DNA of 64,000 nucleotides from Corallococcus soli. GTDB lineage: Bacteria > Myxococcota > Myxococcia > Myxococcales > Myxococcaceae. Below are positions 30,676 to 40,904 of the stretch, in pieces. A program made the translations under genes and the position numbers. The stretch's first letter is position 1. Every line of letters starts with the position of its first letter. The notes under the pieces were generated by a model. It searched no databases. It saw nothing but the letters and a program-made list of their open reading frames with translations, and had not been told where the DNA came from. The DNA is taken from positions 124,001 to 188,000 of the forward strand of contig NZ_JAAIYO010000011.1 of the NCBI RefSeq assembly GCF_014930455.1. The letters are read 5' to 3'.

Positions 30676-32187
30676 ATGCACCGCCGAATCCTCACTGCCC
30701 TCCTCACGCTGACCGTCTCCGCCTGCGCCACCACGAAGCCCGCGGAGGCCCCTCCCGCTGAACCCTCCGGCGCCCAGCAACCCCAGACGCCCGCGCCGGA
30801 TGCGGAGGCCTTCCGTCAGACGCCGCCCAAGCCGGGCACGCCGCCGGAGCTGGTGCTGCCCACCTTCGAGAAGGCCCAGCTGGACAACGGGCTCACCGTC
30901 ATCGTCAGCACGCGCAAGGAGCTGCCGCTGGTGTTCGCCGGCATCGCCTTCGCCGCCGGTGTGTCGCAGGAGCCCGCCTCCAAGCTGGGCGTGGCGGACC
31001 TGTCCTACCGCATGCTGCTGGAGGGCGCGGGCAAGCGCGACACGGTGGCGCTGGACAACGCGTTCGCGGACCTGGGCGTGTCCCCCGTGATGTCGGTGGA
31101 GCCCGACGGCGCCTTCGTGGGCGCGCGCGTGCTCACGCGCAACGTGGACGCGGTGATGGCGCTGCTGTCGGACGTGGTGCTGCGGCCCACGTTCGACGCC
31201 AAGGCCTTCGACCGGCGCAAGAAGCAGCAGCTGGGCGAGCTGGTGCGCCGCATGGGCGACCCGAACTTCCTCGCGCAGCAGGCCTACTACGCCGCCGTCT
31301 TCGGCGCGGACCACCCGTACGGCCACCCGTCCGGGGGCACCCCCAAGACGGTGCAGGCGCTGACGCTGGCGGACGCGAAGAACTTCTACGTGAAGAACAC
31401 CGGGCCCCGCGCCGCCGCGCTCATCATGACCGGCGACGTGACGCTGCCGCAGGCGGTGGAGTGGGCGAAGAAGTACTTCGGCGGGTGGAAGGGCGGGGCC
31501 GTGGCGCCCAAGCCGCCGCCCGCGCCGCCCGCGCCGCCGCGTGAGCAGGTGCGCATCGTGCCCAAGCCGGGCCTGGAGCAGACGGTGGTGCTGGTGGGCC
31601 GTCCCGGCCTCGCCACCGGCCATGCGGACGAGTACCCGCTGGAGCTGGCCACCACGGTGTTCGGCGGCTTCTTCGGCAGCCGGCTCAACATGAACATCCG
31701 CGAGGACAAGGGTTACAGCTACGGCGCCAACGCCTCGCTGGGCACGCGGCTGGGCGTGGGTCCGCTCACCGCGTATGCGGCCGTGCGGCAGAACGTGACG
31801 GGCCCCGCGCTCAACGAGTTCATCCAGGAGCTGGCGGGCCTCAAGACGAAGCCCATCACGGAGCAGGAGCTGGCCGCCGCGCGCGAGGGCCTCATCCGCG
31901 CCTTCCCGGGCGCCTTCGAGACGGTGGAGGGCCTGGGTGGCAGCGCATCACGGCTCTTCTTCCAGCGCCGTCCGATGGACGAGTTCAAGAAGAGCGTGGA
32001 GGGCCTGCGCGACGCCACCGCCGCCGAGGTGCAGCGCGTGGCCGAGGCCTACCTGGACCCGGCCTCCATGCAGGTGGTGCTCGTGGGTGACCCGCTGGTC
32101 ATCCAGGAGCAGGTGACGCCGCTCAACCTGGGCAAGCTGACCCTGGTGGAGACGCCCGCCTCGGACGCGGCGCCCGCGTCCAAGTAG
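30676..32187 (+). CDS. M16-family protein lacking the zinc motif (lipoprotein partner)
   Basis: A 503-residue lipoprotein (signal ILTALLTLTVSACA, lipobox SAC). The fold is M16 (FEKAQLDNGLTVIVSTRKELP, then VADLSYRMLLEGAGKRD), but the HxxEH motif is replaced by SYRML, so it should not bind zinc. It probably forms a heterodimer with the upstream protease, the substrate-binding half as in M16B pairs. A Pro/Ala linker (PKPPPAPPAPPREQ) joins the two halves. The ATG has GGAGG ten bases upstream; a TTG two codons earlier overlaps the preceding stop. A strong hairpin follows the stop codon. Confidence 0.88.
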   Translation: MHRRILTALLTLTVSACATTKPAEAPPAEPSGAQQPQTPAPDAEAFRQTPPKPGTPPELVLPTFEKAQLDNGLTVIVSTRKELPLVFAGIAFAAGVSQEPASKLGVADLSYRMLLEGAGKRDTVALDNAFADLGVSPVMSVEPDGAFVGARVLTRNVDAVMALLSDVVLRPTFDAKAFDRRKKQQLGELVRRMGDPNFLAQQAYYAAVFGADHPYGHPSGGTPKTVQALTLADAKNFYVKNTGPRAAALIMTGDVTLPQAVEWAKKYFGGWKGGAVAPKPPPAPPAPPREQVRIVPKPGLEQTVVLVGRPGLATGHADEYPLELATTVFGGFFGSRLNMNIREDKGYSYGANASLGTRLGVGPLTAYAAVRQNVTGPALNEFIQELAGLKTKPITEQELAAAREGLIRAFPGAFETVEGLGGSASRLFFQRRPMDEFKKSVEGLRDATAAEVQRVAEAYLDPASMQVVLVGDPLVIQEQVTPLNLGKLTLVETPASDAAPASK

Positions 32188-32212: not shown

Positions 32213-32246
32213 GGCCGGGGTCCCGACATGCGTCGGGGCTCCGGCC
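32213..32246. terminator. Strong bidirectional hairpin terminator
   Basis: A 15-bp stem with two G-T wobbles: GGCCGGGGTCCCGAC pairs with GTCGGGGCTCCGGCC across a 4-base loop, followed by TTCTTC. It lies between the convergent M16 gene and the small minus-strand gene. Confidence 0.75.
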
Positions 32247-32538: not shown

Positions 32539-32647
32539 GGGGTGCTCCCAGTCAGGTGGGTCAACAGGGTGACATTGAGAATGTCGGCAGCCTCAAGGCA
32601 GTGCACCACGGTGGACTCCGGGAGGCGGGGGCCCGGTTGCCCGCCCC

Positions 32648-32677
32648 CTGACCGGGTGTCGTTGAAACGGCTAGGAT
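32648..32677 (+). promoter_or_regulatory. Candidate thrA leader promoter
   Basis: CTGACC (32648-32653), 18 bases, then TAGGAT (32672-32677): four of six matches to each sigma-70 box. If used, transcription would start close to the ATG of the leader ORF at 32687, giving a nearly leaderless peptide. Confidence 0.35.
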
Positions 32678-32686
32678 GGTGACTCC

Positions 32687-32857
32687 ATGGACGGACAGCG
32701 CGGGCATGGCATGCGGCACGAGGGGACGACGTCCTGCGTGGGCACGCGTTCCCAGACCGCCCTGACGCGCACTTGCGCCGGCCTGGCTCGCGGACCGCCT
32801 GACTTCGGACGGACCTCCCCGGTCCCCCTCCCGAACCCGGCCCCGCGCTCCTCCTGA
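32687..32857 (+). CDS. Putative threonine-rich leader peptide of thrA
   Basis: A 56-codon open frame in the thrA leader. Residues 14-29 (TTSCVGTRSQTALTRT) contain six threonines in sixteen positions, and its stop codon overlaps the terminator hairpin that precedes thrA. E. coli thrL, a Thr/Ile-rich peptide, regulates the equivalent gene by attenuation. No clear ribosome site is seen upstream. The coding call is tentative: at this GC content open frames arise by chance, and the stop is placed further into the terminator than in the classical case. Confidence 0.4.
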   Translation: MDGQRGHGMRHEGTTSCVGTRSQTALTRTCAGLARGPPDFGRTSPVPLPNPAPRSS

Positions 32858-32871
32858 GCGCGGGGCTTTTT
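32841..32871 (+). terminator. Intrinsic terminator in the thrA leader (candidate attenuator)
   Basis: Perfect 9-bp stem CCCCGCGCT / AGCGCGGGG, 7-base loop, followed by CTTTTT. It reads on the plus strand, yet no plus-strand gene ends between it and the divergent minus-strand gene upstream, so it can only act on transcripts starting in the thrA leader. AGCGCGGG at 32697-32704 repeats the 3' arm and could pair with the 5' arm as an anti-terminator. Confidence 0.8.
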
Positions 32872-32977
32872 CGTCGCCCCAACCCCCAGAGAACCTCCCC
32901 GGAACCGCCATGACGACCCTGATGCCCCCGCTGGACTCCCACCGCCATCCCTCCTCCCGCCGCGAGGAGGCCGTGTC

Positions 32978-35434
32978 ATGCGCGTGATGAAATTCGGTGG
33001 CACCAGTGTCGGGGATGCGGAGCGGATGCGGGGCGTGGTGGCGCTGGTCGAGGAGGCGCGCAGGACGGAGCGGGTGACGGTGGTGGCCTCGGCGGTGTCG
33101 GGCATCACCAACCTGCTGGTGGGGGCGGCGCGGGCGGCCCAGGAGGGCGAGCCGGTGCAGGACGTCTGCGCCCGCTTCGAGGACGTGCACTCCGCCATCG
33201 CGAAGGCGCTGGGCGCGGAGCTGAAGCCCGCGCAGACGCGGCCCCTGGCCGAGGGGCTGGTGGCGCTGGGCGCGGAGCTGCGCGGGCTGTTGCAGGGCGT
33301 GGGGCTGCTGCGCGAGTGCTCGCCGTCGGTGCTCGCGCACCTGTCGGGCCTGGGCGAGCGGGCGTCGTGCCTGCTGCTGGCGGCGCTGCTGGAGGCGCGG
33401 GGGCTCCAGCCCACGAGCCTGGATCCGCGACAGGTGTTGCTGTGTTCGGGAGACCCGCTCCAGGCGACGCCGCGCGTGGAGGCGATCCGCGAGCGGTTCG
33501 CGCCGTTCCGGGACGGCGGGCCGGGGCTGCTGCTCATGCCGGGCTTCTTCGGGGGGGATGCGCGCGGCAAGACGATGTCGCTGGGGCGGGGTGGGTCGGA
33601 CTACTCGGCGGCGCTGGCGGCGGCGGCGCTGGATGCGCGGCTGCTGGAGATCTGGACCGACGTGGACGGCATCTTCAGCGCGGATCCGCGCCTGGTGCCG
33701 GAGGCGTTCGCGCTGGAGGAGGTGAGCTTCGAGGAGGCGATGGAGCTGGCCTACTTCGGGGCGAAGGTGCTGCACCCGAAGACGATTGCCCCGGCGCGGG
33801 AGCGGGGCATCCCGGTGCGCGTGTGCAACAGCTTCCGGCCGGAGCACCCGGGCACGCGGGTGACGGCCACGGCGAAGGCGACGCGGCATCCGGTGCGGGG
33901 GCTGTCGTTCCTGCAGGACATCGCGCTCATCAACATCGCGGGCGCGGGGTTGAAGGGCGTACCGGGCACGGCCGCGCGCGTGTTCGAGGCGATGGCGCGC
34001 GCGTCCATCTCCGTGGTGCTCATCACCCAGGGCTCCAGCGAGTCCTCCATCAGCTTCTGCGTGGGCCAGGAGGAGGGCGACCGGGCGGTGCAGGCGCTGG
34101 AGGAGGCCTTCGAGGCGGAGCGCGAGGGGGGGAAGGTGGACCCCATCGAGCAGCAGCCGGGGCTGGCGGTGCTGAGCATCGTGGGCGACGGGATGCGGCA
34201 CCGGGTGGGCGTGGCGGGCACGTTCTTCAGCGCGCTGGCGGACGTGGATTGCAGCATCGCGGCCATCGCGCAGGGCTCCAGCGAGCGGAGCATCTCCGCG
34301 GTGATCGCGCAGGTGGACGGGCCCCGGGCCATGGCGCACGTGCACCGCAAGTGCTTTGGCACCACGGAGATTGTGGAGCTGTTGGTGGCGGGCGTGGGCA
34401 CGGTGGGGGGAGAGCTGCTGCGGCAGATCCACCAGCAGGCGCCGAAGCTGCGGGCGCATGGTCTGGACTTGCGCGTGTGCGCCATCGCGAACAGCCGGCG
34501 CAGCCTGGTGGCGCCGGAGGGCGTGGCGCTGGACGGCTGGAAGGCGCTGCTGGAGGCGAGCGCGGCGGGCTTCACGCTGGACACGTTCCGGGAGTGGGCG
34601 AAGGCGCGGCGTCCGGGCCGGCCCATCTTCGTGGACTGCACGAGCAGCGAGGACGTGGCGCTGGGGTATCCGGCGCTGATGGCGTCCGGGCTGCATGTGG
34701 TGACGGCGAACAAGAAGGCGAATTCGGGACGGCAGGACCACTGGCGCGCCCTGCGGGACACGGCGTCGCGGCACCAGCGGAAGTTCCTCTACGAGACGAA
34801 CGTGGGGGCGGGGCTGCCGGTCATCGACACGCTGAAGAACATGCTGCGCACGGGCGACACGGTGCACCGGGTGGAGGGCATCCTGTCCGGTTCGCTGTCC
34901 TTCATCCTGGGATTGACGGAGCAGGGGGTGCCGCTGTCGAAGGCGGTGGGCACGGCGATGGAGAAGGGCTTCACGGAGCCGGACCCGCGGGACGACCTGG
35001 AGGGCACGGACGTGGCGCGCAAGGTGCTCATCCTGGCGCGGGAGCTGGGGCGCACGCTGGAGTTGGAGGAGGTGGCGCTGGCGTCGCTGCTCCCGGAGGA
35101 GTTCGACGCGACGGGGCCGCTGCAGGACTTCCTGGCGCGGCTGCCACAGGCGGACGACATCTTCCAGCAGCGGGTGGAGGCGTACAGGAAGGAGGGCAAG
35201 GTGCTGCGCTACGTGGGCAGCGTGGGGCCGGAGGGCGTGCGCGTGGGATTGGTGCCGGTGCCGCTGGAGCATCCGCTGGCGGCGGTGAAGGGCGGAGAGA
35301 ACGCGCTCAGCTTCCTGTCGGAGCGCTACAGCCCCACGCCGCTGGTGATTCGCGGATACGGCGCGGGCGCGGCGGTGACGGCGGCCGGCGTGCTGGCGGA
35401 TGTGCTGCGATTGGTGGAGGGGCCGCTGCCCTGA
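32978..35434 (+). CDS. thrA: Bifunctional aspartokinase / homoserine dehydrogenase
   Basis: An 818-residue fusion catalysing the first and third steps from aspartate to threonine, methionine and isoleucine. The aspartokinase domain starts MKFGGTSVGD and includes LGRGGSDYSAALAAAAL and EIWTDVDGIFSADPR. Two ACT domains follow (about 310-465, LINIAGAGLKGVPGTAARVF and LSIVGDGMRHRVGVAG), the likely site of feedback by amino acids. The homoserine dehydrogenase part has the NAD-binding VAGVGTVGGELL, TANKKAN and the NVGAGLPVIDTLKNML / GILSGSLSFILG signature. It closely resembles the gammaproteobacterial ThrA type. GAGGAGG lies seven bases before the ATG, fixing the start. An attenuator-like leader precedes it. 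Confidence 0.95.
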   Translation: MRVMKFGGTSVGDAERMRGVVALVEEARRTERVTVVASAVSGITNLLVGAARAAQEGEPVQDVCARFEDVHSAIAKALGAELKPAQTRPLAEGLVALGAELRGLLQGVGLLRECSPSVLAHLSGLGERASCLLLAALLEARGLQPTSLDPRQVLLCSGDPLQATPRVEAIRERFAPFRDGGPGLLLMPGFFGGDARGKTMSLGRGGSDYSAALAAAALDARLLEIWTDVDGIFSADPRLVPEAFALEEVSFEEAMELAYFGAKVLHPKTIAPARERGIPVRVCNSFRPEHPGTRVTATAKATRHPVRGLSFLQDIALINIAGAGLKGVPGTAARVFEAMARASISVVLITQGSSESSISFCVGQEEGDRAVQALEEAFEAEREGGKVDPIEQQPGLAVLSIVGDGMRHRVGVAGTFFSALADVDCSIAAIAQGSSERSISAVIAQVDGPRAMAHVHRKCFGTTEIVELLVAGVGTVGGELLRQIHQQAPKLRAHGLDLRVCAIANSRRSLVAPEGVALDGWKALLEASAAGFTLDTFREWAKARRPGRPIFVDCTSSEDVALGYPALMASGLHVVTANKKANSGRQDHWRALRDTASRHQRKFLYETNVGAGLPVIDTLKNMLRTGDTVHRVEGILSGSLSFILGLTEQGVPLSKAVGTAMEKGFTEPDPRDDLEGTDVARKVLILARELGRTLELEEVALASLLPEEFDATGPLQDFLARLPQADDIFQQRVEAYRKEGKVLRYVGSVGPEGVRVGLVPVPLEHPLAAVKGGENALSFLSERYSPTPLVIRGYGAGAAVTAAGVLADVLRLVEGPLP

Positions 35435-35476
35435 CGGTGTAGGGGTGGGGCGGAAGTGGAGCCTGGGAGGGTCGAG

Positions 35477-35570
35477 ATGGCGGAGATGGGCGAGGAGGAG
35501 TTCGTTCAGAAGGTCGAGCTACGTCGTCATCACGGCGCTCGAATCCGGCATCGAGACACGGCCGCTGTGA
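35477..35570 (+). pseudogene. Remnant of a small gene upstream of sitA copy 1
   Basis: The first 13-14 codons (MAEMGEEEFVQKV) match the 125-residue gene in front of sitA copy 2, and the last roughly 50 bases match that gene's 3' end, but about 284 bp in between are missing. The frame now runs in phase into the toxin gene, so an artificial longer open frame is created. The original overlapping GTGA stop/start is still present at 35567-35570. Confidence 0.75.
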
Positions 35571-36235
35571 GTTTGCGGGTGCTGGGGAAGTGGCTGGCGT
35601 GCGGCGTGCTGGGGTTGTTGTTGGCGGCGTGCGCTTCCAGCACGCCGCTCCAGCAGCGGTGGGATGAGGCGGAAGCGGAGTGCGGCGAGGCGAGTGAAGA
35701 CGCCTGTGTGACCCTGCTGTGTGAGGGCACGGAGTGTGGCTTTTATCGCTGTGAGGACGTGCCCGGGGAGGTGGTGCTGGCGCGCGGCCTTCCACCCCGT
35801 CCGCCTCCCGTGGCGGTGGCTCCCGCCCCGGGCAGCGGGCCCCGGCGCAACTGGGGCGGGAGCATGAACCTGCCGGGTGGCAAGAAGCCCGTCGTGGTGT
35901 TCCCCAAGGCCGAAGACATTCGGTCCGTGGTAGTTCCGCAGCGACGGTTGTCCGCGGGGAAGATGGAGAAGCATCACATCTTCCCGCAGGCGCCGGATCT
36001 CGCTCGGTGGTTCAAGCGACAGGGCGTCGACATCCACCTCTACACGCTGCCCCTTCCCGTTCACGTTCACCGACGCATCCATAGCGGAGGGGACAGGGGC
36101 GGCGATTGGAATCAGGCTTGGCGCGAGTTTCGCGATGCAAACGAGCATGCCCTACCTGCGGAGATCTACAAACACGCCGGAAGCCTCATCTATCGCTTTC
36201 AACTCACGGGTGATTCCATCCAGCAGTATTACTGA
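35567..36235 (+). CDS. SitA-like polymorphic toxin lipoprotein, copy 1
   Basis: A 222-residue lipoprotein: signal LACGVLGLLLAACASS with the lipobox AAC, a Cys-containing N-terminal module (CGEASEDACVTLLCEGTECGFYRC), a Pro-rich linker and a C-terminal domain with KHHIFPQ, HVHRRIH and WNQAWREF, an HNH-nuclease-like pattern of the TIGR02269 lipoprotein family. In Myxococcus, SitA lipoprotein toxins are passed between cells by TraA/TraB outer-membrane exchange, and the paired SitI protects kin. The GTG start was chosen by comparison with copy 2, which has identical length. An upstream in-frame extension is a deletion artefact. The immunity gene follows after 27 bp. Confidence 0.82.
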   Translation: MSLRVLGKWLACGVLGLLLAACASSTPLQQRWDEAEAECGEASEDACVTLLCEGTECGFYRCEDVPGEVVLARGLPPRPPPVAVAPAPGSGPRRNWGGSMNLPGGKKPVVVFPKAEDIRSVVVPQRRLSAGKMEKHHIFPQAPDLARWFKRQGVDIHLYTLPLPVHVHRRIHSGGDRGGDWNQAWREFRDANEHALPAEIYKHAGSLIYRFQLTGDSIQQYY

Positions 36236-36262
36236 TCTTCCGCAGCCAAGGCACTCAAAGCC

Positions 36263-36988
36263 ATGAGCCGTTATTTCTATCTTCGTCCCGACAAAGCAAC
36301 CTGGGCCACCTACAAGGGTGAGTTCAATGCCGTCCCAAAATGGGGGTTGCCCGGCCTGAAGGATTGTCCGGGCTGTGGTGCCTCCTGGTCATCCTGGGGC
36401 ACTCACTATCCCGCCGTGGATCTGTCGGAGCTTCCAGAACGACACGAGTTCGAAGAAGCTCGACAAGAACCCTTTCACGAATTCGTGCGTCTCCGGGAGT
36501 TGGTGCGTCCCCTGGCGCCTCCCAATTCCAAGCTTCCACCCGGCACCGACTTCGGTCCGTTGGTCGGTCCTGCTTCCGGTCGGCTCGCTCCCTTCTCGGG
36601 ACTTGAAAGCTGTTGGATTGTCGTTCGCCGGGACACCTTCGACAGCCTCCAGGCAGCGGGCGTGCGTGGATTGCTCGGCTGCAAGACGGAGCTGAAGTTC
36701 CGTCAGAAGACGCCGCCGGAGCTCATCGAACTCCAGATCGAACCACGCGGTCTGTTGCACCGTGACTGCCTGCCGCCGGATCTGGCCCCTCCCTGCACCA
36801 CTTGCGGACGACAAGGTTTCACCCTGCCGGACGACCCCATCCTCGATGAAGCCTCGCTGCCCACGGACACGGACCTGTTCCGCGTGGGCAACTTCGCCAC
36901 CGTCATCATCGGCACCGACCGCTTCAAGGACGCCGTGGAGCAGGGTGGATGGGAGGGCATCAAGTTCCGTGAACTTCCCGTGCGCTGA
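36263..36988 (+). CDS. SitI-like double-CXXCG immunity protein, copy 1
   Basis: A 241-residue cytoplasmic protein of the myxobacterial double-CXXCG paralogous family. The two zinc-ribbon-like motifs are CPGCG near residue 37 and CTTCG near residue 176. The region between (PPNSKLPPGTDFGPLVGPASG, QAAGVRGLLG) is family-specific. Members are encoded directly behind SitA-type toxins and are taken to neutralise them. Compared with copy 2, the last roughly 65 residues are nearly identical, while the first 120 diverge, as expected if the N-terminal part determines toxin specificity. Confidence 0.82.
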   Translation: MSRYFYLRPDKATWATYKGEFNAVPKWGLPGLKDCPGCGASWSSWGTHYPAVDLSELPERHEFEEARQEPFHEFVRLRELVRPLAPPNSKLPPGTDFGPLVGPASGRLAPFSGLESCWIVVRRDTFDSLQAAGVRGLLGCKTELKFRQKTPPELIELQIEPRGLLHRDCLPPDLAPPCTTCGRQGFTLPDDPILDEASLPTDTDLFRVGNFATVIIGTDRFKDAVEQGGWEGIKFRELPVR

Positions 36989-36989
36989 C

Positions 36990-37004
36990 GCTCCAGTCTG
37001 GAGC
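36990..37004. terminator. Short hairpin after sitI copy 1
   Basis: GCTCCAG-T-CTGGAGC, a perfect 7-bp inverted repeat immediately after the stop codon. There is no T-run; terminator function is inferred from position. Confidence 0.4.
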
Positions 37005-37028
37005 GGGAAGGGCAGCAGCCCCACCACA

Positions 37029-37112
37029 AGTCCCACGCCGGTGGCGATTCTCGGGTACGACGCGGCCGTGACAGCGGATGTATTGCGATGGGTGGAAGGG
37101 CTACGGCCCTGC
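37029..37112 (+). pseudogene. Decayed copy of the thrA 3' end
   Basis: The segment aligns with the last roughly 105 bp of thrA (from AGCCCCACGCCG at 35330 to its stop), with about 80% identical bases and one gap of some 20 bp. Matching blocks include CCCACGCCG, GCGGATGT and GATGTAGG-like spacer sequence just after the stop. It marks the upstream end of the second unit of a tandem duplication that included the thrA tail. Confidence 0.8.
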
Positions 37113-37155
37113 CGATGTAGGAATGGGGATGGAAGTGGAATCCGAGAGGATCAAG

Positions 37156-37533
37156 ATGGCGGAGATGGGCGAGGACGAGTTCGTTCAGAAGGTCGCTGAA
37201 CGGCTGGCGCGGATGCCGAAGGACACCGCGCCGACGGGGGAGCCGTACCATCTCCTGGAAGCCGCGACGGCCGACGGTGAGCTGCTGGGCCAGTATTGGA
37301 TGGAGGGGCCCGAAGGGGGCCTCCCCGTGTTCCAGAGCCGGAAGGATGCGCTCACGGCGGTCCGGTGCATGCCGCTGCCCTCGGAGCTTGGAGGATATTC
37401 GGAGGCCGCCGAGCGCTGGCACATCCGGGCGCTCTCCGGTGATGAGTTCCGCTATTTCTTCCTCAATCCATACGTCACGCTCTACGTCGTCATCACGGTG
37501 CTTGAATCCGGCATCGAGACGCGACCTCTGTGA
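37156..37533 (+). CDS. Small protein preceding sitA copy 2
   Basis: A 125-residue soluble protein without a signal peptide, opening MAEMGEDEFVQKVAERLARM and ending VVITVLESGIETRPL. No known family is recognised. GAGAGGA lies five bases before the ATG. The stop overlaps the GTG of sitA copy 2 (GTGA), so it is translationally coupled to the toxin. An internally deleted copy of the same gene precedes sitA copy 1. It could be an accessory or regulatory component of the cassette or an additional immunity factor; nothing in the sequence decides between these. Confidence 0.75.
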   Translation: MAEMGEDEFVQKVAERLARMPKDTAPTGEPYHLLEAATADGELLGQYWMEGPEGGLPVFQSRKDALTAVRCMPLPSELGGYSEAAERWHIRALSGDEFRYFFLNPYVTLYVVITVLESGIETRPL

Positions 37534-38198
37534 CAGTGCGAGTCCTGGGGAAGTGGCTGGCGTGCGGTGTGCTGGGGTTGTTGCTGGCGGCCTGCGCTTC
37601 CAGCACGCCGCTCCAGCAACGGTGGGATGAGGCGGAAGCGGAGTGCGGCGAGGCGAGTGAAGATGCCTGCGTGACCCTGCTGTGCGAGGGCACGGAGTGC
37701 GGCTTCTATCGCTGTGAGGACGTACCCGGGGAGGTGGTGCTGGCGCGCGGCCTTCCGCCACGTCCGCCTCCCGTGGCGGTGGCCCCCGCTCCGGGCAGTG
37801 GGCCCCGGCGCAACTGGGGCGGGAGCAATAGCCTGCCGGGCGGCAAGAAGCCCGTCGTGGTCTTCCCCCGGCCTGACAACGTCAGGCCTGTGGAGCTTCC
37901 GCAACGCCGGTTGTCCGCAGGGAAGATGGAGAAGCACCACATCTTCCCTCAGGCACAGGAACTGGCTCGGTGGTTCAAGCAACAGGGCGTCGACATCCAC
38001 CTCTATACCCTACCCCTTCCAGTTCACGTTCACCGCCGCATTCACAGCGGAAAGTCCATGGGCGGCGAGTGGAATCAGGCATGGCGCGAGTTCATCAGTG
38101 CAAAACCAAATGCCACTCCACAAGAAATCCATCAGCACGCGGGCGTGCTCATCTACCGCTTTCAGCTCACTGGCGGTCCCATCCAGCAGTACAACTGA
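37530..38198 (+). CDS. SitA-like polymorphic toxin lipoprotein, copy 2
   Basis: A 222-residue lipoprotein, equal in length to copy 1 and almost identical over the signal, Cys-rich module and linker (residues 1-160). The C-terminal toxin region keeps KHHIFPQ and HVHRRIH, but the last 45 residues differ (KSMGGEWNQAWREFISAKPN here, versus a DRGGDWNQAWREF version). The GTG start overlaps the preceding stop. As for copy 1, delivery by outer-membrane exchange is known for the SitA families and inferred here. Its own immunity gene follows after 28 bp. Confidence 0.82.
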   Translation: MTVRVLGKWLACGVLGLLLAACASSTPLQQRWDEAEAECGEASEDACVTLLCEGTECGFYRCEDVPGEVVLARGLPPRPPPVAVAPAPGSGPRRNWGGSNSLPGGKKPVVVFPRPDNVRPVELPQRRLSAGKMEKHHIFPQAQELARWFKQQGVDIHLYTLPLPVHVHRRIHSGKSMGGEWNQAWREFISAKPNATPQEIHQHAGVLIYRFQLTGGPIQQYN

Positions 38199-38226
38199 CC
38201 TTCTTCTGAATAGGGATTGAAAGCCC

Positions 38227-38952
38227 ATGCCCCGCTACTTCTGGCTGCGCGACGACACGGTCGCCACGGCGCGTTACAGCGGCGATTTTGATGCCGCGCA
38301 CAAATGGGGTCTCCCAGGCCTCAAGAATTGTCCAGGCTGCGGTGCCACCTGGGGAGGCGCGGGACACAATTACCCGGCCGTGGACCTTTCGCTCATTCCC
38401 GAGCATGGAGAATTCGAAGAGCCCCGACCCGAACCGTTCCATGAGTTCGTCCGCCTCCAGGCGTTGGTGCGTCCCATTGCCCCACCGAATTCAAAACTTC
38501 CTCCTGGGACCACCTTCGGTCCTCTCGTAGGAGCTGCTTCGGGGCAGTTCGGCCCGTTCATGTGGCTTGGGATCTCGATGATGATCATCCGCCGCGACAC
38601 GCTCAACAACCTCCAGGCCGCTGGCGTTCGGGGACTCCTCGGAGCCCGCACGGAGCTGCGGTTCCGCCAGAAGACGCCGCCGGACATCCTCGAACTGCAA
38701 ATCGAGCCACGCGGGCTGCTCCACCGGGACTGCCTTCCCCCTGACGTGGTGCCCCCTTGCACCACTTGCGGACGACAAGGTTTCACCCGGCCGGACGACC
38801 CCATCCTCGACGAAGCCTCACTGCCCACGGACACGGACCTGTTCCGCGTGGGCAACTTCGCCACCGTCATCATCGGCACCGACCGCTTCAAGGACGCCGT
38901 GGAGCAGGGTGGATGGGAGGGCATCCAATTCCGTGAACTGCCCGTGCGTTGA
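38227..38952 (+). CDS. SitI-like double-CXXCG immunity protein, copy 2
   Basis: A 241-residue homologue of copy 1 with the same two motifs (CPGCG and CTTCG). The N-terminal 120 residues differ from copy 1 at many positions (RYFWLRDDTVATARYSG versus RYFYLRPDKATWATYKG), while the C-terminal 65 are nearly the same. Encoded 28 bp behind sitA copy 2, it is expected to be the specific antidote for that toxin. Cross-protection with copy 1 cannot be judged from sequence. Confidence 0.82.
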   Translation: MPRYFWLRDDTVATARYSGDFDAAHKWGLPGLKNCPGCGATWGGAGHNYPAVDLSLIPEHGEFEEPRPEPFHEFVRLQALVRPIAPPNSKLPPGTTFGPLVGAASGQFGPFMWLGISMMIIRRDTLNNLQAAGVRGLLGARTELRFRQKTPPDILELQIEPRGLLHRDCLPPDVVPPCTTCGRQGFTRPDDPILDEASLPTDTDLFRVGNFATVIIGTDRFKDAVEQGGWEGIQFRELPVR

Positions 38953-39077: not shown

Positions 39078-40904
39078 TCATCCCCGGACAGGGAAGGGCG
39101 GCGGCTCCACCACCACTTCCATCGGCAGGTGCTGCTTCTCCGCGATCCACCGCACCCAGAGCTTCGGCCGGGCCGTCAGGCCATCCCGGTGCTTGGGGCG
39201 CTCCAACCGGATGGACAGCCAGTTGCGGTCCCTCAAATACAGTTCCTTGCCCACCGGCAGCAGCTCCGTCTGGAGAAACCCCGGCAGGTCCTCGCGGGAG
39301 TCCTTCGACATCGCGAGCATCCCCTTGAAGGCCAACCAGCACGGCGGCGGGTGGACGATGGGCGAGGACGTCACCTGTTCAATGAACACCTCCCCCACCG
39401 TGCCCAACGCGGGCACCAGGTGGTCCGGGTTACGGGAGCGCACCCGGGCCCTGGCCCCGACGTGCACGTCTCCGGACAACACCGTCACCGCGCAGTAGGA
39501 CCGCTTCGACAGGGAGAACAGGTTCATCAACAGCCGCGTGCGCTCGCCGCGGTGCACCGCGGACTCCCACTGGTCCAGCAGGTCGTCGCGCAGGTGGATG
39601 CCCCCGGTCATGTCCTCCATCGCCGGCCCGAAGCGCAGGTGCACGAGCGGCACCGAGGACACCACCAGCACGTGCCGCGCCTTCTTCCCGTTCTCCGGCC
39701 GCTGGCGGTGTTCCTCGCGCCAGGCGTCGAACGCGTCCCACTGCGCGCGGCTCATCACCGTGAATTCGGACTGCGGATGGGCGTCGTCCGTGTCCAGCAC
39801 CCGGCTGGTCCGCCCGCTGCGCAGGTCCAGCAGCACCACGTCCAGGTCGCAGTCCTCCGTGGAGAAGCAGAACGTCCGGAAGTAGTGCCGGGTCTCGCGC
39901 GGGTCCTCGTCCCGGACCTCCCGCCGCACGGGCTGGATCAATCCCTGGTCATCCGGTTCACGCGCCGTCTCCGGCCGCTCCAGCATGCCGTGCTGGAAGG
40001 CCTCGAAGGCCCGCGCCGCCGCGCTGTAGATGGCCCGGTACCAGGGGGACCGCTGGAGCTCCTCGTGCGAACCCCAGCCGTCGAAGATGTCGTGGTCGTC
40101 CCACGTGAAGAGGCCGGGCACCCGCTGGAGCAGCGCCGCGATGCCCTCCGGCCCACCCCAGCGCTCCCGGTACAGCCAGACGTATTCAGCGAGCAGGGCC
40201 TCCCGCAGCCCGTCCGGCACGGCCCGCGTCAGCCGCTTGGACCGGGGCAGCTTCATGTGCCCGTTGAGCACCTCCATCGTGTTGTGGAGCGAGTCCGCGT
40301 AGAGCTGGTCTCCGCCGCCAATGAGCAGTTGGAAGCCCGGCGTCTTCGCGGGGTCCGTCGGCTCCTTCTGATGGTGTTGCAGCATCCGCTCCCAGAGCGC
40401 GTACGGCTCCGCGAGGTCGCTCCAATCACTCGCGCGGCTGGCGCCGTTGCAGGAGAAGAACGCGATGTTGGGCGACACGCCCCGCTGGGGAACGACGACG
40501 TCGGACACGACGAGCGGCGTGGGAGGAGCGCCCGGGGGCGCGGCGCGGCCGCTTCGCGGCGGAGGAGGCTCGAACGTCACCGGCACGCCGGGCAGGCCCA
40601 GCGCTTCGAAGTGGTAGGACAGCCGCTGGGCCACGTCCTTGCGCGGCAGGACGACCTCCCAGCGCCACACCACGCCCGCGGTGTCCTTCGGCAGGCGGGT
40701 GAAGTCCGCCGCGGGCTTCACGTCTTCAAACGTCGCGACCGTCACGCCCCGCGCGTCCGTGAAACACAGCCTTGGGGCCGGGCACGCATCCACCGACGGA
40801 CTGTCCAGGAACACGTTGACGTAGAAGCTCCACACGTCGTGGGACTTCGGGTCGGGTGTGGACTGGGCCTTCGCGTACAGGATGGGTCCGAGCAGCAGCT
40901 TCAT
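39078..40904 (-). CDS. PhoD-like alkaline phosphatase / metallophosphoesterase
   Basis: A 608-residue protein. The PhoD-type metal-binding motifs are visible in order: FFSCNGA, GGGDQLYADS, TWDDHDIFDGWGS and LSGDVHVGAR. No signal peptide is present, unlike secreted PhoD enzymes, so it may act in the cytoplasm or be exported in another way. An N-terminal strand-rich domain (about 1-130) precedes the catalytic domain. The start at MKLLLG was selected; longer in-frame sequence is Arg-rich and not conserved. Substrates could be phosphodiesters or phosphomonoesters. Its stop abuts a GNAT gene fragment. Confidence 0.85.
   Translation of the reverse strand: MKLLLGPILYAKAQSTPDPKSHDVWSFYVNVFLDSPSVDACPAPRLCFTDARGVTVATFEDVKPAADFTRLPKDTAGVVWRWEVVLPRKDVAQRLSYHFEALGLPGVPVTFEPPPPRSGRAAPPGAPPTPLVVSDVVVPQRGVSPNIAFFSCNGASRASDWSDLAEPYALWERMLQHHQKEPTDPAKTPGFQLLIGGGDQLYADSLHNTMEVLNGHMKLPRSKRLTRAVPDGLREALLAEYVWLYRERWGGPEGIAALLQRVPGLFTWDDHDIFDGWGSHEELQRSPWYRAIYSAAARAFEAFQHGMLERPETAREPDDQGLIQPVRREVRDEDPRETRHYFRTFCFSTEDCDLDVVLLDLRSGRTSRVLDTDDAHPQSEFTVMSRAQWDAFDAWREEHRQRPENGKKARHVLVVSSVPLVHLRFGPAMEDMTGGIHLRDDLLDQWESAVHRGERTRLLMNLFSLSKRSYCAVTVLSGDVHVGARARVRSRNPDHLVPALGTVGEVFIEQVTSSPIVHPPPCWLAFKGMLAMSKDSREDLPGFLQTELLPVGKELYLRDRNWLSIRLERPKHRDGLTARPKLWVRWIAEKQHLPMEVVVEPPPFPVRG

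Follow-up and report, generated by a model that had tools for sequence, protein, structure and literature searches.

At the centre of the locus is thrA, which encodes a bifunctional aspartate kinase/homoserine dehydrogenase I on the plus strand of the 64,000-nucleotide stretch of Corallococcus soli DNA analysed here (the window). As listed in Table 1, the gene is preceded on the same strand by a predicted promoter, a Thr-rich leader ORF (ORF1), an intrinsic terminator and a second small ORF that overlaps its start. Upstream of this leader, the closest long plus-strand ORF ends at 32187 and has a terminator-like site of its own (32213–32246). Directly 3' of thrA, positions 35456–38952 hold two tandem cassettes, each for a SitA6-type polymorphic toxin lipoprotein and a SitI6-type immunity protein.

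Table 1. Features of the thrA leader and its surroundings (window positions)
Feature	Positions	Strand	Details
Predicted leader promoter	32648–32677	+	-35 CTGACC 32648–32653, 18-nt spacer, -10 TAGGAT 32672–32677
Leader ORF1	32687–32857	+	56 codons, 7 Thr; start 9 nt past the -10 box
Possible 5' (pause-type) hairpin	32722–32736	+	Around the first two Thr codons, ACG ACG; presumed role
Junction of net 10-nt deletion	32788–32789 (approx.)	+	Relative to 14/14 other Corallococcus leaders read
Remnant of antiterminator 5' strand, CGCGG	32789–32793	+	Complementary to 32843–32847
TGA matching the ORF1 stop of Corallococcus relatives	32800–32802	+	Out of frame in the window
Inner antiterminator stems	32804–32835	+	TTCGG/CCGAA, 32804–32808 x 32831–32835; GGACC/GGTCC, 32811–32815 x 32821–32825; predicted fold, kept in the window
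Intrinsic terminator	32839–32871	+	12-pair stem, 5-nt loop, T5; 5' arm doubles as predicted antiterminator 3' strand
Second small ORF	32910–32987	+	25 codons, MTTLMPPLDSHRHPSSRREEAVSCA; overlaps thrA start by 10 nt
thrA, bifunctional aspartate kinase/homoserine dehydrogenase I	32978–35434	+	NCBIfam NF006959, 999 bits (cut-off 726)
SitA6/SitI6-type cassettes	35456–36235 and 36263–36988; 37530–38198 and 38227–38952		NCBIfam TIGR02269, TIGR02264

The hairpin facing thrA reads GGCCCCGCGCTC-CTCCT-GAGCGCGGGGCT with T5 after it (arms 32839–32850 and 32856–32867; T-tract 32867–32871). The initial annotation had described a terminator here; its hairpin and T5 are real, but the stem comprises 12 pairs, one of them G-T, rather than the 9 first counted. 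A strict scan, with a threshold of at least 8 perfect pairs, returned this hairpin as the sole plus-strand site in the 64 kb and one further site on the minus strand. With lax settings, 4 terminator-like sites were found in 3 kb against 0.6 expected, and 9 in 20 kb against 8.3 expected. A lenient finder (at least 4 T in 8) placed a terminator between the leader ORF and thrA in the window; among the relatives scanned, the one exception was L044, an incomplete leader on a contig that starts 62 nt before thrA.

ORF1 opens with the ATG at 32687, ends with a TGA at 32855–32857 within the terminator, and reaches six Thr codons in sixteen, just as had been reported from the first reading of the sequence. 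From the window alone the evidence for a Thr-rich ORF is weak: 2 of the 166 ATG ORFs of 20–80 codons reach 6 Thr in 16. The other of the two, at 40465, was taken as a chance match. The leader feature stands out from chance only once its conservation in relatives is considered. A Thr-rich ORF1 precedes thrA in 14/14 other readable Corallococcus leaders (9–11 Thr; G009 lacks the gene start), in 26/26 readable leaders of the second genus group, Myxococcus/Pyxidicoccus (10–15 Thr, with longest uninterrupted Thr runs of 5–13; the 27th, L044, is cut by a contig end), in 5/5 leaders of the Holophagaceae-A group and, with a filter of at least 4 Thr, in 24/25 of Holophagaceae-B, where L178 fails. Holophagaceae belong to the Acidobacteriota. 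The initial annotation had staked its reading on conservation of the terminator and the Thr codons, and both recur before thrA in 69 relatives from two phyla.

In the 65 relatives measured, ORF1 mostly spans 38–48 codons and contains 4–15 Thr; across the relatives its stop lies 19–42 nt before the terminator and adjoins the predicted antiterminator strand. Its Thr codons mix ACC, ACG and ACT, so that the Thr runs are not one DNA repeat. The pN/pS of ORF1, calculated with automatically picked ORF starts of which several were truncated, was 1.16 in Corallococcus and 0.91 in Myxococcus, and the peptide as such is therefore not conserved. A peptide function, considered for ORF1 and for the second small ORF alike, is disfavoured by pN/pS values near 1. 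Two Holophagaceae leaders carry Ile or Met at related positions: L178, which keeps its terminator and has few Thr codons (2, by eye), and L201, which has 4 Thr. The regulatory amino acid has possibly been changed or lost in these two.

We fitted a -35/-10 pattern to the leaders, allowing 4–12 nt to the start codon; the pattern thus describes the same sequences to which it was fitted. It occupies the same place in 15/15 Corallococcus leaders, window included, and across matching leaders the -35/-10 spacing is 17–19 nt. The distance from the -10 box to the ORF1 start codon, which is ATG or GTG in the relatives, is 8–9 nt in Corallococcus (15/15), 7–8 nt in Myxococcus (26/26), 6 nt in 4/5 Holophagaceae-A leaders (the fifth is cut by a contig) and 6 nt in 21/24 Holophagaceae-B leaders (3 were unmatched). 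A transcription start site has a usual distance from its -10 box, and with that distance the constant spacing suggests that the RNA starts at, or 1–3 nt before, the start codon. The ORF1 mRNA is thus probably leaderless or has a 5' UTR of ∼2–3 nt. A general sigma-70 scan returned no site in the leader region, the proposed leader promoter included.

We then considered how the terminator might be prevented from forming. The last ORF1 codons (RGARxV, RGARTA) contain GGAGCGCGG, the Corallococcus form, or a variant of it, which can pair with the terminator 5' arm. An antiterminator built on such a pairing was predicted in 69/69 relatives modelled. The initial annotation had placed the antiterminator strand at 32697–32704, where AGCGCGGG repeats the terminator 3' arm. 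That copy proved unconserved, the conserved strand being the one where ORF1 ends. In the window, AGCGCGGG would be expected 11.75 times and is present 14 times; among 14 relatives only 1 has it near the ORF start (L061; L064, whose automatic ORF start is internal, was read by eye).

Complementarity between the ORF end and the 5' arm exceeded composition shuffles (p < 0.05) in 11/14 Corallococcus relatives, 5/5 Holophagaceae-A, 14/24 Holophagaceae-B and 3/26 Myxococcus leaders, and the window gave p 0.55. Because these results are uneven among clades, duplex complementarity by itself was rejected as proof of an antiterminator. When the terminator 3' arm was left out of the folded segment, consensus energies were -56.0 kcal/mol in Corallococcus (12 rows; shuffle mean -38.0), -39.5 in Myxococcus/Pyxidicoccus (20 distinct rows; shuffle mean -26.4), -37.5 in Holophagaceae-A (5 rows; shuffle mean -20.0) and -29.1 in Holophagaceae-B (23 rows; shuffle mean -13.4), each below the lowest of 50 column shuffles. 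The initial annotation had proposed a covariation check on myxobacterial thrA leaders; the consensus folds of the four clades contained no pair changed on both sides within any single clade. Pooling Myxococcus with both Holophagaceae sets gave 2 two-sided pairs and an energy of -22.4 against a lowest shuffle of -21.9.

In a 40-row alignment that included the window (A2), 86.5% of cells pair. Shuffles average 83.8%, and slid versions, over which the structure is favoured by being derived from the same sequences, give 35–49%. Changes on both sides affect 41 cells, which belong to 6 of the 21 pairs. Among 500 shuffles, none matched the real alignment in percentage, cells or score, 76 matched its 6 two-sided pairs, and all 500 matched its pair-type count. 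Full-length consensus folding (A3) returned the terminator alone, with a covariation term of -0.2, and the whole window leader (32660–32875) was no more stable than shuffles (z -0.83; 36/200 as stable). Taken together, the placement of the strand and the fold energies make the predicted antiterminator likely, with modest covariation that falls short of proof. The possible 5' hairpin emerged when the first 72 nt of the leaders (14 from Corallococcus, 26 from Myxococcus/Pyxidicoccus) were folded with RNAalifold, in a run that had no shuffle control.

We also modelled the leaders with a ribosome in place. With the ribosome at the ORF1 stop, the terminator had a probability of at least 0.94 in 69/69 relatives. 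With the ribosome stalled upstream, its equilibrium probability was below 0.3 in 20/26 Myxococcus and below 0.5 in 4/5 Holophagaceae-A leaders; it was at least 0.5 in 13/14 Corallococcus relatives and 16/24 Holophagaceae-B leaders (below 0.5 in 1/14 and 8/24, respectively). Because the terminator persists in the stalled equilibrium fold of these last two clades, antitermination in them would have to be co-transcriptional or kinetic.

The second small ORF (21–28 codons) overlaps the thrA start in 40/40 Corallococcus and Myxococcus/Pyxidicoccus relatives. The overlap is 10 nt in 31 of them (14/14 Corallococcus and 17/26 Myxococcus/Pyxidicoccus); the remaining 9 overlap by 4 nt. Many relatives, though not all, have a Shine-Dalgarno-like AGGA or GAGG ahead of this ORF; the window has none. 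Since its peptide is unconserved (pN/pS 0.79 and 1.00), the role that suggests itself is translational coupling to thrA, which is probable. Leader genes have been proposed, in general terms, as sites of reinitiation (PMC4833913). In many Holophagaceae-B loci the thrA reading frame seems to begin some codons upstream (e.g. MQPTP-IRVMKFGG), and the second small ORF may descend from an earlier thrA start of that kind.

The window copy of the leader departs from those of its relatives. Its net 10-nt deletion removes GGAG of GGAGCGCGG and shifts the frame of ORF1, which runs beyond the ancestral stop into the terminator loop; a stop inside the terminator, not before it, is unlike what an attenuator requires. 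The predicted antiterminator over the 5' arm is -11.6 kcal/mol in the window versus -14.3 to -19.5 in 14/14 Corallococcus relatives. Because the window value falls inside the Holophagaceae range (-7.8 to -17.4 kcal/mol), we regard this structure as weakened, not lost. In such a leader, a Thr-replete ribosome would enter the terminator and disturb it, and a stalled ribosome would leave a weak antiterminator, with the result that control would be lost or inverted. The window copy is therefore probably deregulated, with predicted read-through in the presence of Thr and only slight induction when Thr is scarce, provided that the deletion is not an assembly error.

We consider it quite possible, if on balance doubtful, that a sequencing or assembly error produced the net 10-nt deletion and that the true allele is intact like those of the 14 relatives. 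The deletion is seen in 0/14 other Corallococcus leaders read, the window assembly is a draft of 68 contigs, and the relatives have a CGCGGAG/CGCGGAC near-repeat at the deletion site. A real slip between these repeats would, however, be equally simple, and the loss of 10 nt is an atypical error for short reads.

As a whole, the thrA leader is best explained as a ribosome-mediated transcription attenuator that senses the supply of threonyl-tRNA, and we hold this reading with high confidence. Thr-dependent attenuation of thrA had been suggested at the outset, and the Thr-rich ORF1 and the terminator in the relatives support it. Beyond what the sequences give directly (the ORF, its Thr codons, the terminator, the start geometry and the gene tree) and the predicted alternative pairing, we infer where transcription starts, that the ribosome stalls and transcription terminates, and in which direction regulation runs, as follows. 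Transcription would begin at the start codon of ORF1 or 1–3 nt ahead of it. A ribosome would load onto the leaderless mRNA and translate the Thr-rich ORF1 peptide. When Thr-tRNA is low, the ribosome would stall on the Thr codons of ORF1, the strand at the ORF1 end (GGAGCGCGG in Corallococcus) would pair with the terminator 5' arm, CCGCGCTCC, and the inner stems would extend the duplex; with this antiterminator formed, RNA polymerase would continue into thrA. With ample Thr, the ribosome would reach the ORF1 stop and mask the antiterminator strand, the terminator would form, and transcription would end. The second small ORF would be translationally coupled to thrA.

An alternative is that the terminated leader is mainly a stand-alone sRNA or a small-protein mRNA acting in trans, with the thrA promoter downstream of the terminator. 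Trans-acting attenuator leaders exist, such as rnTrpL/peTrpL of Sinorhizobium meliloti (PMC7298713), and the sigma-70 scan was blind here even to the proposed leader promoter, so that a downstream thrA promoter is possible. The near-neutral pN/pS of ORF1 nevertheless speaks against a small protein, the Thr codons, the stop and the predicted alternative pairing sit where an attenuator would require them, and the leader precedes this thrA in Holophagaceae too; we regard a trans-acting leader as improbable. Less probable still, to the point of being highly unlikely, is a riboswitch for threonine or another ligand, which the initial annotation had offered as its alternative and which would fit a 5' leader with possible alternative structures. 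No Rfam family matched the window at gathering score, and a relaxed scan gave sub-threshold matches only, mostly to sRNA families over the terminator (the best being sX13, E 0.039). Similarity between clades is, moreover, mainly at the ORF1 end and the terminator, and the leaders differ in how many Thr codons they have and which synonyms they use. Chance in a GC-rich genome, to which the 2 in 166 window ORFs as rich in Thr, the expected frequency of AGCGCGGG and the unexceptional leader fold would lend themselves, is scarcely conceivable given a Thr-rich ORF and terminator before thrA in 69 relatives of two phyla.

To place the attenuator in its phylogenetic setting, we followed thrA outside the window. 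ThrA orthologues of 78–96% identity occur in the 15 other Corallococcus genomes searched, in several as pieces at contig ends, and in 27/27 Myxococcus/Pyxidicoccus genomes. A Myxococcus-type thrA (81% to the window) is also present in a record titled Comamonas sp. KCTC 72670, which is probably mislabelled. At E 1e-200 or better, this ThrA is present in 2 of 90 Myxococcota genera and 42 of 195 genomes, a count that misses one Corallococcus genome (G006) with the gene in pieces. Among 19 other ThrA-like loci of Myxococcaceae, 15 lack any Thr-rich ORF within 260 nt; in the other 4 the start could not be placed.

A scan of genome contigs with two peptide patterns, which covered the best 80 of 112 relatives, found the closest ThrAs outside Myxococcaceae, at 54–58% identity, in two metagenome records (L082 and L083) and four Holophagaceae (L084–L087). 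The Holophagaceae four have the Thr leader; before thrA of L082 and L083 it was looked for and none was found. These two records are labelled Proteobacteria and Planctomycetota, and their ThrAs are 55–58% identical to that of the window. Of 77 Holophagaceae genomes, 54 carry this ThrA, and 29 of 30 loci inspected in the family have a Thr-rich ORF followed by a terminator, L178 being the exception. Eleven further loci, one of them (L203) from a genome already sampled, were read by eye: in 10 an ORF of 3–10 Thr is followed by a terminator, and one could not be judged (L212). Among 396 sampled Acidobacteriota genomes 28 match at E 1e-190, all of them among the Holophagaceae-family matches. The sequence GGTCTAGC at the ORF1 stop is common to Holophagaceae-A (5/5) and Myxococcus/Pyxidicoccus (20/20 distinct rows) and is absent from the Corallococcus leader rows.

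A quick-method maximum-likelihood ThrA tree of 61 rows, drawn with a midpoint root, unites Corallococcus and Myxococcus with both Holophagaceae groups, L082 and L083 (support 97). This group adjoins gammaproteobacterial ThrA with support 99; its inner order is weakly supported, and L082 and L083 sit on long branches. The initial annotation had raised a joint acquisition of gene and regulation from the gammaproteobacterial look of this ThrA. We likewise infer joint acquisition, but gammaproteobacteria, rejected as the nearest source, stand one step further out than Holophagaceae. On the simplest reading of the sequences, leader and thrA were probably inherited together and crossed phyla together; an independent origin of some leaders is possible. 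A bolder version, which we regard as rather unlikely as a whole, is that a leaderless Thr attenuator crossed phyla with thrA and still works in at least two of them, and that the frameshift has turned the window copy into a constitutive or inverted switch, in which replete ribosomes would break the terminator and starved ones would let it form.

In the enterobacterial thrL-thrABC system, as here, a Thr-rich leader ORF and a terminator precede a bifunctional ThrA. The ThrA described here belongs to a neighbouring lineage of the same enzyme. The leaders differ in that ORF1 is longer here (38–48 codons) than thrL, its start is probably leaderless, and the predicted antiterminator strand is encoded by the last ORF codons (e.g. 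RGARAV, VRGT). The Rfam model of the enterobacterial leader (Thr_leader, RF00506) did not match the window, nor any of seven Myxococcaceae and Holophagaceae loci (L007, L036, L039, L049, L163, L165 and L179) at E up to 1; it detected 3/3 gammaproteobacterial loci (L089, E 4.1e-06; L097, 7.3e-05; L134, 0.021), all below the gathering score.

RNA that starts at a leader-ORF ATG is described for S. meliloti trpL (rnTrpL) in PMC7298713; the predicted leaderless start resembles it, whereas rnTrpL has Trp codons and precedes another gene. Leader peptides on leaderless transcripts are also described for Streptomyces lividans, including a thrL before the tRNA-ligase gene thrS that has two Thr in 18 codons and for which a U-rich terminator was not found, according to PMC8079986. 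The combination here of a Thr-rich ORF and a terminator before thrA is set apart from that thrL by description, not by sequence comparison. For Actinobacteria, PMC1262725 reports that no structure is conserved upstream of threonine operons, while citing thr attenuators elsewhere. In open-licence literature we found no paper that links Thr attenuation to Myxococcus, Deltaproteobacteria or Acidobacteria, and no title on a Myxococcus start-site map or on its aspartokinase. The system has possibly been predicted before in comparative-genomics work (Vitreschak 2004 and Lopatovskaya 2010).

Attenuation of this kind is known; what is new is the lineage, the probable leaderless start and the sharing across phyla. 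As read here, the findings widen the range of Thr attenuation to include Myxococcota and Acidobacteriota, whose leaders, in the loci tested, go unmatched by the current Rfam model. They suggest joint inheritance of a gene and its cis-regulatory RNA across phyla. In the window copy they point to a possible natural frameshift allele, whose predicted consequences are testable in tractable myxobacteria.
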